Assembly (NCBI RefSeq): GCF_022760805.1
Contig: NZ_JAIVFL010000001.1
Location: forward strand, 2,790,001 to 2,854,000
Reading direction: 5' to 3'
DNA length: 64,000 nt
Source: Candidatus Mycolicibacterium alkanivorans
Lineage (GTDB): Bacteria; Actinomycetota; Actinomycetes; Mycobacteriales; Mycobacteriaceae
The notes under the pieces: generated by a model
Seen by the model: the letters and a program-made list of their open reading frames with translations, nothing else
The model's database searches: none
Told to the model about the DNA's origin: nothing
In this document: piece by piece, positions 44,491 through 48,223 of the stretch
Position numbering within the stretch: the stretch's first letter is position 1
How the letters are laid out: every line of letters starts with the position of its first letter
Program-made: the position numbers and the translations under genes

Positions 44491-45732
44491 TCAGGAGTAC
44501 AGGGTCGGGACTGGATAGCGGCCGTTGAGCACATAGTTGCCGACGTCGGCGATCTTGTAGGCGACCGGATCGTGGAGAGTGTGGGTGCGGACGTTGCGCC
44601 AGAACCGATCGAAACCGTAGTTGGGGTGGGTGCCGCGTGCCCCGATGACTTCGAAGATGCCGCTGGCGACATCGAGGCCGGCCTTGGTGGCCAAAGCTTT
44701 GACACCGGAAACCCGCACCATCAGCTCGCCACGATCCTCGGGGGTCACCGCGTCGTCCTTATCCCAGATCTGCTGCAGCAGCCGTGCGGTCTCTCGGGCC
44801 GCTGCGTCGGCAGCTTGCAGTTGAATGCCGAACTCGCCGTAGGTGCGGATGACATATGGATCGTCGGCCGCCCGGGTGACGCCGGCAGCCAATGCGGTCG
44901 GCCATGGCCGGGCCGCTGTTGTGGTGTAGTGCCGCGCCGCGTCGAGAGCGCCGTGCGCGATCCCCAGATAGACGTTGGCGAACACCAGTTGGATCAGTGG
45001 CGTCCAGATGCTGGGACGGCTGGCCGCTGCAAACGCCTCTATGACCGCGTTGGGTTTGCCCAGCACCTCTTCCGGCTCGATTTTCGCGTCATGAAATTCG
45101 GTGGTGCCGCTGTCGGTGCGGCGCTGACCGATCGCTTGCCAATCGTCGTTTACAACCACGCCGTCGCGCTGGGTGGGGATCGCGGCGGTGACGATCGCCT
45201 CATCATGCGATGAGCTGTCGTCTTTGGTCACCGCGAATACCAGCAGCAGGTCCGACCCTTTGGCGCCGCTGGAGAAATGCTTTGTGCCATTGAGCAGGTA
45301 GCCGCCGTCCGGCGTCGCGGTCGCGCTGACCTTCCAGTCCAGCACGTTACTGTTGTTCTCGCTGGAGGCGTTGCCGACCCACCAGCGCTGTTTCGCGATG
45401 GCACCCAGTAGCCGCTCTTGTTGCCGCGGTGACCCCACCAACTCGATGAAAGGCAGGAGGGAGATGTGGTAGCCGAATAGATGTCCCAACGAGCCGTCCG
45501 CCCTGGCGAACTCACGCACGACCTCCAAAGCGGTGGGCCAGTCCGCACCCAAGCCCCCGAAGCGGGTTGGCACCGTAAGCCCCAACAGTCCGCTCGCGCG
45601 GATATCTTCCTTTTCGGCTGCGGCTGAACCGCCGGCGTGATCGCGTTCCACGACGAACGGCTCCCACTTTCTGCTCAGCTCGCGCGCCACCGCCAAAGGG
45701 TCGTGGGTGGTGAGCTCTTCGATTGCGGTCAT
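44491..45732 (-). CDS. dszC: Dibenzothiophene monooxygenase DszC homologue
   Basis: DszC uses FMNH2 to oxidise dibenzothiophene to its sulfone, the first step of the 4S pathway. The ATG at 45732 gives 413 residues (417 in Rhodococcus IGTS8). Blocks characteristic of DszC are conserved throughout: GLGADWPTALEVVREFARAD, GSLGHLFGYH, NASSENNSNVLDWKVSATAT, LNGTKHFSSGAKGSDLL, FANVYLGIAHGALDAAR, and RFWRNVRTHTLHDPVAYKIA. The acyl-CoA dehydrogenase fold lacks that family's catalytic Glu. It overlaps dszB by ATGA and is last in the operon. It needs an FMN reductase (DszD), which is not in the window. Confidence 0.92.
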   Translation of the reverse strand: MTAIEELTTHDPLAVARELSRKWEPFVVERDHAGGSAAAEKEDIRASGLLGLTVPTRFGGLGADWPTALEVVREFARADGSLGHLFGYHISLLPFIELVGSPRQQERLLGAIAKQRWWVGNASSENNSNVLDWKVSATATPDGGYLLNGTKHFSSGAKGSDLLLVFAVTKDDSSSHDEAIVTAAIPTQRDGVVVNDDWQAIGQRRTDSGTTEFHDAKIEPEEVLGKPNAVIEAFAAASRPSIWTPLIQLVFANVYLGIAHGALDAARHYTTTAARPWPTALAAGVTRAADDPYVIRTYGEFGIQLQAADAAARETARLLQQIWDKDDAVTPEDRGELMVRVSGVKALATKAGLDVASGIFEVIGARGTHPNYGFDRFWRNVRTHTLHDPVAYKIADVGNYVLNGRYPVPTLYS

Positions 45733-46814
45733 GACGTGATAGCTCCTCGGTTGTAGTAGGTATTTTGCAGGAATTGTGGTGCCGCCCAACGGTCCAGCGG
45801 CACCGGGTCATCGATGAGTTGGTGGGCCAGCAAGAACCGTTGGGTCCGCTCAACAAGCCGCAATGAATCAGCGTCCAAGCTGGGCACCAGTGCGTGGTGG
45901 AAACCGACACCGAATGCTGCTGTTACAGCCGCCGCCGGCACACCCAGGTTGTCGGCGTGCGTTTCGATGACCTGCTCGGGGTGAGTCGCCGCCCACAATC
46001 CGGCCGCGACAACGGCATTTACCAGCTGCTGCACTACATGGGGATGATCGGTGACCAGCTCCTGTGACACCGTCCATACGGTTGCGTAATGGTTGCGAGG
46101 GTCGCTGCTCAAGTCTGTTAGCAGCCGGGCCCCGCATCTTGTCTCCAGTTGTGCAGCCCATGGCAGCCACCCGAACAGCGCATCGACTGTGCCGTGATCG
46201 AGAAGAGAGGCTTGCTGGTCCGTGGCACCGGGAAAAAGATCCGCGCCGGTCAGGCTTGCTATCCCGGCGAGCCGACGCTGGGGCACATCGACAAACGGAT
46301 TGTCCACGCGCACCAATTCGACCTCATCGAGTGCCACCTGACCGACATCGAGTGTGTGCAGCAACGCGCGCGCCTCCCAGGTGCCTAGCGCCACCAGAGT
46401 CTGCGCCCACGGATCGAGCTGCCGGTAGTCTGCGAGCTCGCGGCGCACCACGCGAATCGCCGCCGCTGATAATCCGATCCGGCGGCCCGTCAGCTCCGCT
46501 GGCCCGATGATCGGGCTGTCGGCGGCCACATAAAAACCCTGCCTGCCGATGAACGGCGTGACACCCAGCAGCCGGGTTCGGCCCCGGGCACGGAGCCCTT
46601 CGCTGACCAGCGGGGGGATTTCGCCACCGAACCGGGTGTAGTTGGGTCGGTCGTAGGTGAAGTGGGTGGTGCCCTGGCGCCCAGTGAGCACCCGCAGTTC
46701 GAGGCCAACATCAGCGAGGAAGCCGTACTGCTGCGCCACGATCAGGGCGTTGGGCAGCGGGCAGTTGCTGAAGGTGAGGGTGCTCGAATGGGTGTGCAGC
46801 TGGGTTGCTGGCAT
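45729..46814 (-). CDS. dszB: 2'-hydroxybiphenyl-2-sulfinate desulfinase DszB homologue
   Basis: DszB releases sulfite from hydroxybiphenyl sulfinate, the last 4S step. From the ATG at 46814, preceded by GAGGAG, the protein has 361 residues. Its Cys18 (TFSNCPLPNAL), His51 (GTTHFTYDRP) and Arg61 (YTRFGGEIPPL) match catalytic Cys27, His60 and Arg70 of the IGTS8 enzyme at a constant offset of nine. LVALGTWEARALLHTL and TVWTVSQELV are also shared. The fold resembles periplasmic binding proteins, but there is no signal peptide. A GTG at 46856, overlapping the dszA stop as GTGA, is the alternative start and resembles the overlapped dszA-dszB start in IGTS8. Confidence 0.93.
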   Translation of the reverse strand: MPATQLHTHSSTLTFSNCPLPNALIVAQQYGFLADVGLELRVLTGRQGTTHFTYDRPNYTRFGGEIPPLVSEGLRARGRTRLLGVTPFIGRQGFYVAADSPIIGPAELTGRRIGLSAAAIRVVRRELADYRQLDPWAQTLVALGTWEARALLHTLDVGQVALDEVELVRVDNPFVDVPQRRLAGIASLTGADLFPGATDQQASLLDHGTVDALFGWLPWAAQLETRCGARLLTDLSSDPRNHYATVWTVSQELVTDHPHVVQQLVNAVVAAGLWAATHPEQVIETHADNLGVPAAAVTAAFGVGFHHALVPSLDADSLRLVERTQRFLLAHQLIDDPVPLDRWAAPQFLQNTYYNRGAITS

Positions 46815-46852
46815 GACGATCTCCTCGAGGGGCGGCAAGGTGTTGCGGGCTG

Positions 46853-48223
46853 TCACACTGGTGCCTGCGCGGCCACCGGAACATAGGGCAGCGCGAGCCG
46901 TTCACGGAGCGTCGCGCCGTCCTCGTAGCCACGGTGAAACACGCCGATTTCCTGCAGGGCCGGCACCACGTGATCCACGAACTCCCGGTATGTCGCTGGC
47001 AGCGCGACCGGAGAGATGGCGAATCCATCGACGATCGGCTCGGTAAAGTACTCGGCGATCCTCGACGCGATCTGGTCCGCGGTTCCGGCGAACCGCTCGA
47101 CCATCACCCAGCCGTACTGGCGGCCCAGATCGGCCAGCGTGCCCCCAGAAGTGCGGGTGGCGTCGAGCACCAGCTGGAACTGTCCCCGCGATCCGCCAAT
47201 AGAATCGATGTGCGACAACACCGTTTCCATCGGATCATCCAAGTTGAACCGGGAGAAGTCGACGTCGGTGTGCGACGACAGCGACGACAACCCGGCCCGC
47301 GGGTCGACCAGCGATGTCAAGAACTGTTCTTTCTCCCGGGCTTCAGCCTCGGTTTTCCCAACGATCGGGATGATTGCCTCGATCACCCGCAGCGCGTCCG
47401 GATCCCGGCCGGCCTCCGCCGCTTTGGTCTTGATGTCGTCGTAGATCGCTTTGAGCGCTGACCGGTTCGGCGCGATGACGAACACCAGATCGGCCCAACG
47501 AGCAGCAAACCGCCGGCCCTGCGGAGAGGTTCCGGCCTGGATGATCACCGGTCGGCCCTGCGGGGAGTGCGGCAGCGGCAAAGGCCCGCGCACGCTGAAC
47601 CACTCGCCCTGGTGGTTGAGATAAGCGACTTTGGTAGGGTCGGCGAACACACCGGCTGCCCGGTCCAACACCAAAGCATCGGGATCCCAGCTGCGCCAAA
47701 GACCTTCAGTCACCGTTACGAATTCGTCGGCGCGGGCATAGCGAGCGTCGTGCTCAAGATGTGACGTCAACCCGTAGTTGCGGGCTTCCGACGCATTCAG
47801 TGAGGTGACAATGTTCCACGCTGCCCGACCGCCGGAAAGGTGGTCGAGACTGGCCAGCGTGCGTGCTACCGCGAATGGATGGCAGTAGGTGGTCGAAATC
47901 GTCGCGCCCAGACCGATCTTCGTTGTCTCGGCAGCAAGCAGCGGCAATACCGTGATCGGGTCCAGGAATACCGCGCCTTGGGCCCCTAGGCCAACACCAG
48001 CCTCCAAACTATCGCCGTAGCGGTCTTCCACGGCTTGGCAGTCAGGAAGAAAAACGAGGTCGAACAGCCCCCGTTCCAAGGTGCGTGCAACATCAAGGTA
48101 GAACTCCGCGCTCAAAAAGTTGTGGCGGGCCTCTGGATGACGCCAGCCACCGTGGTAGTGCGTCACATTGTGGCTGGCTGCGAAGAACGCGGTCAAAAGC
48201 AGTCGGCGGTCAGACCTACTCAA
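46853..48223 (-). CDS. dszA: Dibenzothiophene-sulfone monooxygenase DszA homologue
   Basis: DszA opens the sulfone ring to hydroxybiphenyl sulfinate with FMNH2 and O2. The 456-residue protein (453 in IGTS8) is a bacterial-luciferase-like barrel of the NtaA/SnaA/DszA group. Conserved DszA blocks include [87 protein letters not shown] and [19 protein letters not shown]. The start must be TTG 48223 or later, because an in-frame stop lies three codons upstream; the Shine-Dalgarno match is weak. It is first in the operon, so 48224-48616 should contain the promoter. Confidence 0.9.
   Translation of the reverse strand: [456 protein letters not shown]

Follow-up and report, generated by a model that had tools for sequence, protein, structure and literature searches.

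A diverged dszABC-like operon with an outlying DszA-like protein in Candidatus Mycolicibacterium alkanivorans

According to our analysis, positions 44491–48223 (minus strand) of the window, a 64,000-nucleotide stretch of the genome, contain three intact, co-directional frames homologous to DszA, DszB and DszC, which probably form a complete 4S-type operon for obtaining sulfur from an aromatic sulfur heterocycle. Judged by its sequences, the operon is a branch apart from the IGTS8, Bds and pMyong1 types. What is new here is that divergence is uneven across the three genes, with DszA, the middle enzyme of the pathway, being the most diverged.

Organization of the operon

The co-directional, adjoining dszA-dszB-dszC arrangement of the 4S operon is present at the locus, and the match in order and length to DszA, DszB and DszC, claimed in the first-pass annotation, was borne out for all three frames, including their coordinates and strand. 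In phmmer searches against PDB sequences, the E-values were 3.9e-153 for the DszA-like protein against BdsA, 5.4e-134 for the DszB-like protein against DszB and 3.7e-190 for the DszC-like protein against DszC; together with the intact frames, these values rule out chance or artefact as the source of the match. The reading of the locus as a diverged dszABC operon stands on gene order, on DszB with its catalytic triad and on the placement of DszC, but is less secure for the identity of DszA. Matches to the DszC-like protein (E ≤ 1e-100) were found in 6 of 198 genomes of the genus, all six of which also had dszB matches.

The dszC start lies on the dszB stop (4-nt overlap, ATGA), whereas dszA and dszB are separated by a 38-nt spacer (46815–46852, minus strand) with a Shine-Dalgarno-like GAGGAG ahead of the dszB ATG; an in-frame GTG overlapping the dszA stop is also present as an alternative dszB start. 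At 10 of the 13 other loci, the dszB start and the dszA stop share 4 or 1 nt. At the remaining three, no dszB start codon is listed from 30 nt before the dszA stop onwards, and dszB must therefore start inside dszA there. The TTG start of dszA has no clear Shine-Dalgarno sequence by eye. Comparison of the 600 bases upstream of dszA with upstream sequence from 10 further loci gave only 12–19-base matches, the best of which (19 bases, E 1.1e-5, with L009 and L013) was inverted; regulatory DNA shared with other dsz loci was dismissed on these grounds. Promoter and terminator scans gave signals at chance level.

The DszC- and DszB-like proteins

The predicted dibenzothiophene monooxygenase (dszC-like, 44491–45732, minus strand, 413 aa) belongs to the acyl-CoA dehydrogenase fold. 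It is 68% identical to DszC of 3x0x, 59–69% to other unbroken DszC and 52% to TdsC, and with TdsC as outgroup it groups within the DszC clade and separately from both TdsC and SfnB, on a branch of 0.26 in an unresolved crown. The residues H84, Y88, N121, S155, W198, H384 and H387 are kept and correspond to H92, Y96, N129, S163, W205, H388 and H391 of IGTS8 DszC, whose roles in that enzyme we assume. The NF043015 score was 700 bits, below the equivalog cut-off of 850, and the protein is therefore classed as DszC-like and not as a DszC equivalog. Other operon DszC proteins scored 784–865 bits; all six were above the window protein and one of them passed the cut-off, five of the six having been started at the first aligned residue and not at full length.

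The predicted 2'-hydroxybiphenyl-2-sulfinate desulfinase (dszB-like, 45729–46814, minus strand) has 361 aa from the ATG (the alternative GTG lies at 46856) and is 60% identical to DszB of 2de2 (IGTS8). Alignment confirmed that C18, H51 and R61 correspond at one constant offset to the catalytic Cys27, His60 and Arg70. These sites are invariant in 14 other DszB sequences, and the residues around the triad are also kept; at sites otherwise invariant in the 14 sequences, the protein carries the changes V29L, A67N and G183F, and an R at 65. No full-length DszB found was closer than about 62%. The best matches of the predicted fold were 2de2 and 2de3 (TM 0.86–0.87). Since pLDDT is below 50 in the stretch 44–64 of the DszB model, which contains H51 and R61, and the predicted structures have mean pLDDT of 79.4 and 78.0, the models were used for fold matching only and not for pockets. 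The DszB-like enzyme would release sulfite from 2'-hydroxybiphenyl-2-sulfinate or a like hydroxyaryl sulfinate.

The DszA-like protein and uneven divergence

The third protein (dszA-like, 46853–48223, minus strand, 456 aa) is an FMN-dependent monooxygenase of the luciferase-like fold class and the NtaA/DszA subfamily (TIGR03860, PF00296), and is a predicted sulfone monooxygenase. The best fold match of its predicted structure is BdsA. Its identity is 54% with BdsA, 53% with DszA proteins and, for two mycobacterial NtaA-family paralogues, 49% in both cases. The phylogeny proposed in the first-pass annotation as a check was favorable for DszC, which lies within the DszC clade, but less so for DszA, which the trees place as sister to the DszA clade (support 93/81 with 25 sequences and 88/70 with 28); AU tests joining it to either paralogue type rejected neither alternative (p 0.111 and 0.205).

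The ratio of DszA to DszC distances was 1.24–1.80 in the seven pairs that include the window operon, compared with 0.37–0.82 in the 18 other pairs, and the DszA/DszB ratios likewise did not overlap. The window DszC is inside the spread of known DszC, and DszA is the outlier. The DszA-like protein shares 20 of the 59 residues specific to Dsz versus 26 of the 146 specific to the paralogues (Fisher p 0.016, the sites not being independent), and its residues 39–76 are 64% identical to DszA versus 42% and 39% to the paralogue types. Similarity to DszA drops towards the C-terminus, and 9 of the 113 residues invariant among 30 compared proteins are altered, several of them in the C-terminal tail; no clean breakpoint of a chimera was seen. 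At the residues that we take to line the sulfone pocket of BdsA (F12, H20, F56, F246, H316 and V372) the aligned protein is identical to BdsA, but the SfnB-linked paralogue type has at least five of the six as well, which makes them non-discriminating. DszA may be the outlier because it changed faster or because a gene of another NtaA-family lineage took its place long ago.

Genomic context and flavin supply

Downstream, about 1 kb from dszC, lies a TauD/TfdA-family dioxygenase gene (42570–43502, minus strand, PF02668), which is probably not on the same transcript as dszC. A CobN remnant suspected by eye between the two was dropped, as it had no Pfam match. Two further TauD-family dioxygenase genes (51664–52596 and 52639–53598, both minus strand) scored 229 and 225 bits with NF007104, below its cut-off of 313; the latter had a match at E ≤ 1e-90 in 1 of 60 other genomes. 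A separate predicted organosulfur cluster (53798–61770, plus strand) includes an IclR regulator, an SsuA/B/C-like ABC transporter, two NtaA-family monooxygenases and an SfnB-like oxidoreductase. These TauD-family and sulfonate-type genes would fit sulfur scavenging. In the flanks of other dsz loci (up to 10 kb, many shorter), no TauD gene was seen, and of the other members of the organosulfur set only an SsuB-like ATPase (33%) at L020; a neighborhood common to dsz loci was therefore dismissed.

The operon is on a contig of 4,049,316 bases, which argues against a plasmid location. A phage location was also dismissed (16 viral stretches fitted a pattern, with no relatives), and the 64-kb window contains no tRNA. 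GC3 of the three dsz-like genes is 0.73–0.78, compared with 0.77–0.87 in 16 other window genes measured; this position at or below the lower edge hints at a foreign origin but is no proof.

The absence of an accompanying DszD was upheld for the PF01613 family: the window has no such flavin reductase, and the two in the genome, at 406882 and 3204965 of contig C1, are outside it. Both are above the Pfam cut-off and neither is above an NCBIfam cut-off.

Interpretation

The best reading appears to be a working 4S-type scavenging operon whose sulfone monooxygenase is strongly diverged or replaced, and therefore the substrate may differ; an altered substrate range is plausible. The DszC-like enzyme would use FMNH2 and O2 to turn a thio compound into its sulfoxide and sulfone. 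Ring opening of the sulfone by the DszA-like enzyme would yield a hydroxyaryl sulfinate, from which the DszB-like enzyme would release sulfite via its Cys-His-Arg site, with FMNH2 presumably coming from an unlinked flavin reductase. Weighing against this reading are the nearly equal distances of the DszA-like protein from DszA proteins and both paralogue types, the AU results, the altered residues at otherwise invariant sites of the DszA- and DszB-like proteins, the NF043015 score of the DszC-like protein and the TTG start of dszA. The reactions, substrate and expression of the operon are predictions, as is any desulfurization of dibenzothiophene.

A plain dibenzothiophene 4S pathway, in which DszA merely evolved faster with its substrate unchanged, is possible, and would agree with the BdsA-like pocket residues and the retained DszB triad; the occurrence of most of these pocket residues in the SfnB-linked paralogue and the changes near the triad count against it. 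We consider it rather unlikely that the original dszA was replaced from another NtaA-family lineage, giving a hybrid operon with a sulfone step and substrate unlike those of known 4S pathways. The non-overlapping distance ratios, the identity of 49–53% to all three types compared and the dszA-dszB spacer, seen at none of the 13 other loci, favor such a replacement. However, no donor was found in samples of 297 genomes from the genus, 348 from the order and 346 from the phylum (the best 4–5 candidates per genome being scored); there the best non-dsz match reached 452 bits, nothing scoring higher than the true DszA at 511 bits, and the best non-dsz plasmid match among the matches listed was 47.5%. 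Moreover, Dsz-specific residues are kept, the ML tree favors the sister position to DszA, and the GTG overlapping the dszA stop is also present at the junction. A tentative proposal is that orthodox DszC and DszB work with a sulfone monooxygenase whose lineage lies beyond the known DszA and which is adapted to an organosulfur compound different from dibenzothiophene. Example substrates under that proposal are a benzothiophene-like or natural aromatic sulfone, the setting being an organic-sulfur-scavenging chromosome region.

It seems improbable that the operon is a decaying relic or has a different role, for example in the general use of aryl sulfinates or sulfones. Among 14 dsz loci three are broken and three more are cut by contig ends, and all four loci of one genome (G045) and dszA of another (G022) are broken, yet the three frames of the window are full length with intact catalytic residues.

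To our knowledge, few dsz operons have been characterized, and these are close relatives whose use is restricted by DszB and by the flavin-dependent steps. A branch of its own in which the catalytic sites are intact would open new enzyme sequence space and may offer a natural test of which enzyme determines substrate range. It also points to a greater diversity of 4S-type operons among mycobacteria and related bacteria than the spread of near-identical copies implies.

Comparison with known systems

The thermophilic Tds pathway was compared through TdsC (5xb8), which is of the same enzyme family, 52% identical to the window DszC and 51–54% to full-length DszC sequences. BdsA (5tlc/5xkc) and the Bds-type operons of M. 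palustre, M. porcinum and Mycolicibacterium sp. J2 share the operon plan of the window but differ in sequence (DszA 53–54%, DszB 56–57%, DszC 68–69%). The same plan is found in the dsz operons of pMyong1 (M. intracellulare subsp. yongonense) and M. peregrinum, which have the closest full-length DszB (62% by tblastn, 58–59% over the whole alignment; DszA 53%, DszC 65%); unlike the window operon, that of pMyong1 is plasmid-borne. The supposed spread of the IGTS8 type among rhodococci and mycobacteria needs correction for the 14 loci: just one of them, in Williamsia sp. 1135 (L015), is IGTS8-like, with DszB and DszC at about 100%, and the mycobacterial loci are mostly of the Bds or pMyong1 type. 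DszABC of Rhodococcus IGTS8, to which we attribute 2de2 and 3x0x/4doy, resembles the window in gene order, lengths, DszB triad and DszC residues; nevertheless, the window operon is, as the first-pass annotation held, not of this near-identical type, since its DszB and DszC share 60% and 68% identity with their IGTS8 counterparts, its DszA is 52% identical to that of L015, and the dszA-dszB junction differs.

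Operon Organization

The three genes, read in the first-pass annotation as a diverged dszABC operon, lie on the minus strand of the window (positions 2790001–2854000 of a contig of 4,049,316 bases, in a genome of 4.05 Mb), and all of them are intact. The dszA gene (46853–48223) has a TTG start without a clear Shine-Dalgarno sequence, and its stop codon is 38 nt from the ATG of dszB (45729–46814), which is preceded by GAGGAG; a second candidate start of dszB is an in-frame GTG that overlaps the dszA stop. The end of dszB and the start of dszC (44491–45732) share the overlap ATGA. 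Two PF01613 flavin reductases are encoded in the genome, both away from the operon; by score, one is nearest to HsaB and the other to RutF, neither being above an NCBIfam cut-off.

Divergence and Phylogenetic Position of DszA

Pairwise comparison of eight operons intact in A, B, and C (the window, L009, L012, L013, L015 from Williamsia sp. 1135, L017, L019, and L023) revealed an unusual DszA in the window. Where the window was not involved (21 pairs), DszA always exceeded DszB in conservation and exceeded or roughly equalled DszC (difference A minus C, −0.3 to +16.7 identity points), whereas in 7/7 window pairs it was the least conserved of the three (A minus C, −6.3 to −15.9 points; A minus B, −1.3 to −6.2). 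Kimura distances, for which 18 other pairs with dC >0.1 were used and three closer pairs omitted, gave dA/dC ratios of 1.24–1.80 in window pairs vs. 0.37–0.82 in the others and dA/dB ratios of 1.04–1.24 vs. 0.41–0.61; the dB/dC ranges overlapped (1.19–1.63 and 0.89–1.45). These pairs are not independent, as one sequence is common to all seven window pairs, which thus record a single event seven times over; in addition, several of the remaining operons almost duplicate one another. The tree branch of the window protein measured 0.26 for DszC, 0.75 for DszB, and 1.1 for DszA. Alternatively, exchange among the other operons may have homogenized their DszA.

Matches to the window DszA at E ≤ 1e-110 occurred in 103/297 genomes of the genus, its own included, and in 96 of these the matches listed were only paralogues with 46–51% identity. 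Two NtaA-family paralogue types were compared, one of which mostly adjoins an SfnB-like gene. The mean identity of the window DszA was 53% to DszA (n = 7) and 49% to both the SfnB-linked type (n = 16) and the second type (n = 7), to which the DszA group itself showed 50 and 47%, respectively. The protein keeps 20/59 Dsz-specific residues vs. 26/146 paralogue-specific ones (9/53 and 17/93 for the two types; Fisher p = 0.016, with sites that are not independent). Eight of these 20 fall within residues 59–84, as aligned with the solved homologue BdsA. Residues 39–76 are 64% identical to DszA vs. 42 and 39% to the paralogue types, and residues 77–114 are equally close (59%) to DszA and the second type. 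Moreover, 9/113 residues invariant across the 30 other proteins compared are changed. In trees the window DszA stood beside the DszA clade on a long branch of its own (support 88/70 and 93/81), and constrained trees joining it to either paralogue type were not rejected (p = 0.111 and 0.205). No lineage nearer than DszA was found among the best candidates per genome scored in 348 order and 346 phylum genomes, nor among the plasmid matches listed, where the best non-dsz match had 47.5% identity.

Distribution of Related Operons

Among 26 plasmid records matching the window DszB, a real dszB was present in one, pMyong1 (62% identity); the other 25 were only 24–29% identical. A search of genome_contigs (84,980 species) with two peptide patterns for dszB relatives yielded 14 loci, which by record title represent 12 organisms, with best-segment identities of 56–65%. 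In the genus, DszB was matched at E ≤ 1e-15 in 14/396 genomes, the window's own counted; apart from the latter, the top-scoring match was 61% identical. The highest segment identities (64–65%) came from frameshifted genes (L020, G313). Thus, no close relative of the operon was seen among these plasmids, species, and genus genomes, a sample that may omit genomes close to the window's own.

Eight of the 14 genome_contigs loci carry all three genes intact (L012, L013, L015–L019, L023), three others are broken (L014, L020, L022), and contig ends truncate the remaining three (L010, L011, L021). One genus genome, G045, carries four separate dsz loci (L072–L075), in all of which the dszB pieces are disrupted or truncated; this indicates that dsz operons can be acquired repeatedly and can degrade. 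In another, G022, an insert of ~1.46 kb (L071:8957–10421) encoding an IS256-like transposase (family assigned by eye) interrupts dszA of a Bds-type operon, the dszB and dszC frames being open. Truncated dszC remnants adjoin transposase genes on a Mycobacterium avium plasmid (pP2-4a, L054) and a Gordonia plasmid (pGKT3, L055). BdsA, whose PDB source is Bacillus subtilis WU-S2B, is 98–100% identical to the DszA of several mycobacterial operons (L022, L021, L012, L016, L017, L018), suggesting a mycobacterial origin of its gene.

Genomic Surroundings

The operon is flanked by TauD-family genes (42570–43502, 51664–52596, and 52639–53598) and a compact predicted organosulfur cluster (53798–61770) with IclR, SsuA/B/C-like proteins, two NtaA monooxygenases, and an SfnB-like protein. 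The first NtaA of this cluster and the TauD of 52639 are uncommon in relatives (matches in 5/99 other genomes at E ≤ 1e-150 and in 1/60 at E ≤ 1e-90, respectively). Together with an IS5 remnant (42067–42573) and an ISAs1 gene (62100–63158), this rarity fits an acquired organosulfur-scavenging region.

A common NtaA monooxygenase of the genus (L039–L053, L062, L063, L065–L067) has an SfnB-like partner in most loci and SsuB-like genes nearby in five. Elsewhere in the window, a multicopper oxidase, a two-component system, and a copper-type P-ATPase (30572–37960) resemble a copper-handling region, which IS630 and IS5 family transposase genes (26240–28313) separate from an exopolysaccharide-type region (both regions judged by eye).

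Predicted Pathway and Active Sites

Judging by homology, the DszC-like enzyme would convert a thio compound to the sulfone, the DszA-like enzyme would convert the sulfone to a hydroxyaryl sulfinate, and the DszB-like enzyme would release phenol and sulfite from the sulfinate. The DszA reaction is the most tentative of these predicted steps, and the substrate is correspondingly uncertain.

In IGTS8 numbering, the window DszB retains C27, H60, and R70, as well as F61, Y63, G73, W155, and F203; the substitutions V29L, A67N, and G183F affect positions invariant in the 14 other rows, and R occupies position 65, where Q or H is found elsewhere. In the window DszC, the counterparts of H92, Y96, N129, S163, W205, H388, and H391 are all conserved. 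The residues of the BdsA pocket (F12, H20, F56, F246, H316, and V372) are all identical in the aligned window DszA; at least the first five also occur in the SfnB-linked type, and the second paralogue type lacks H20 and H316.
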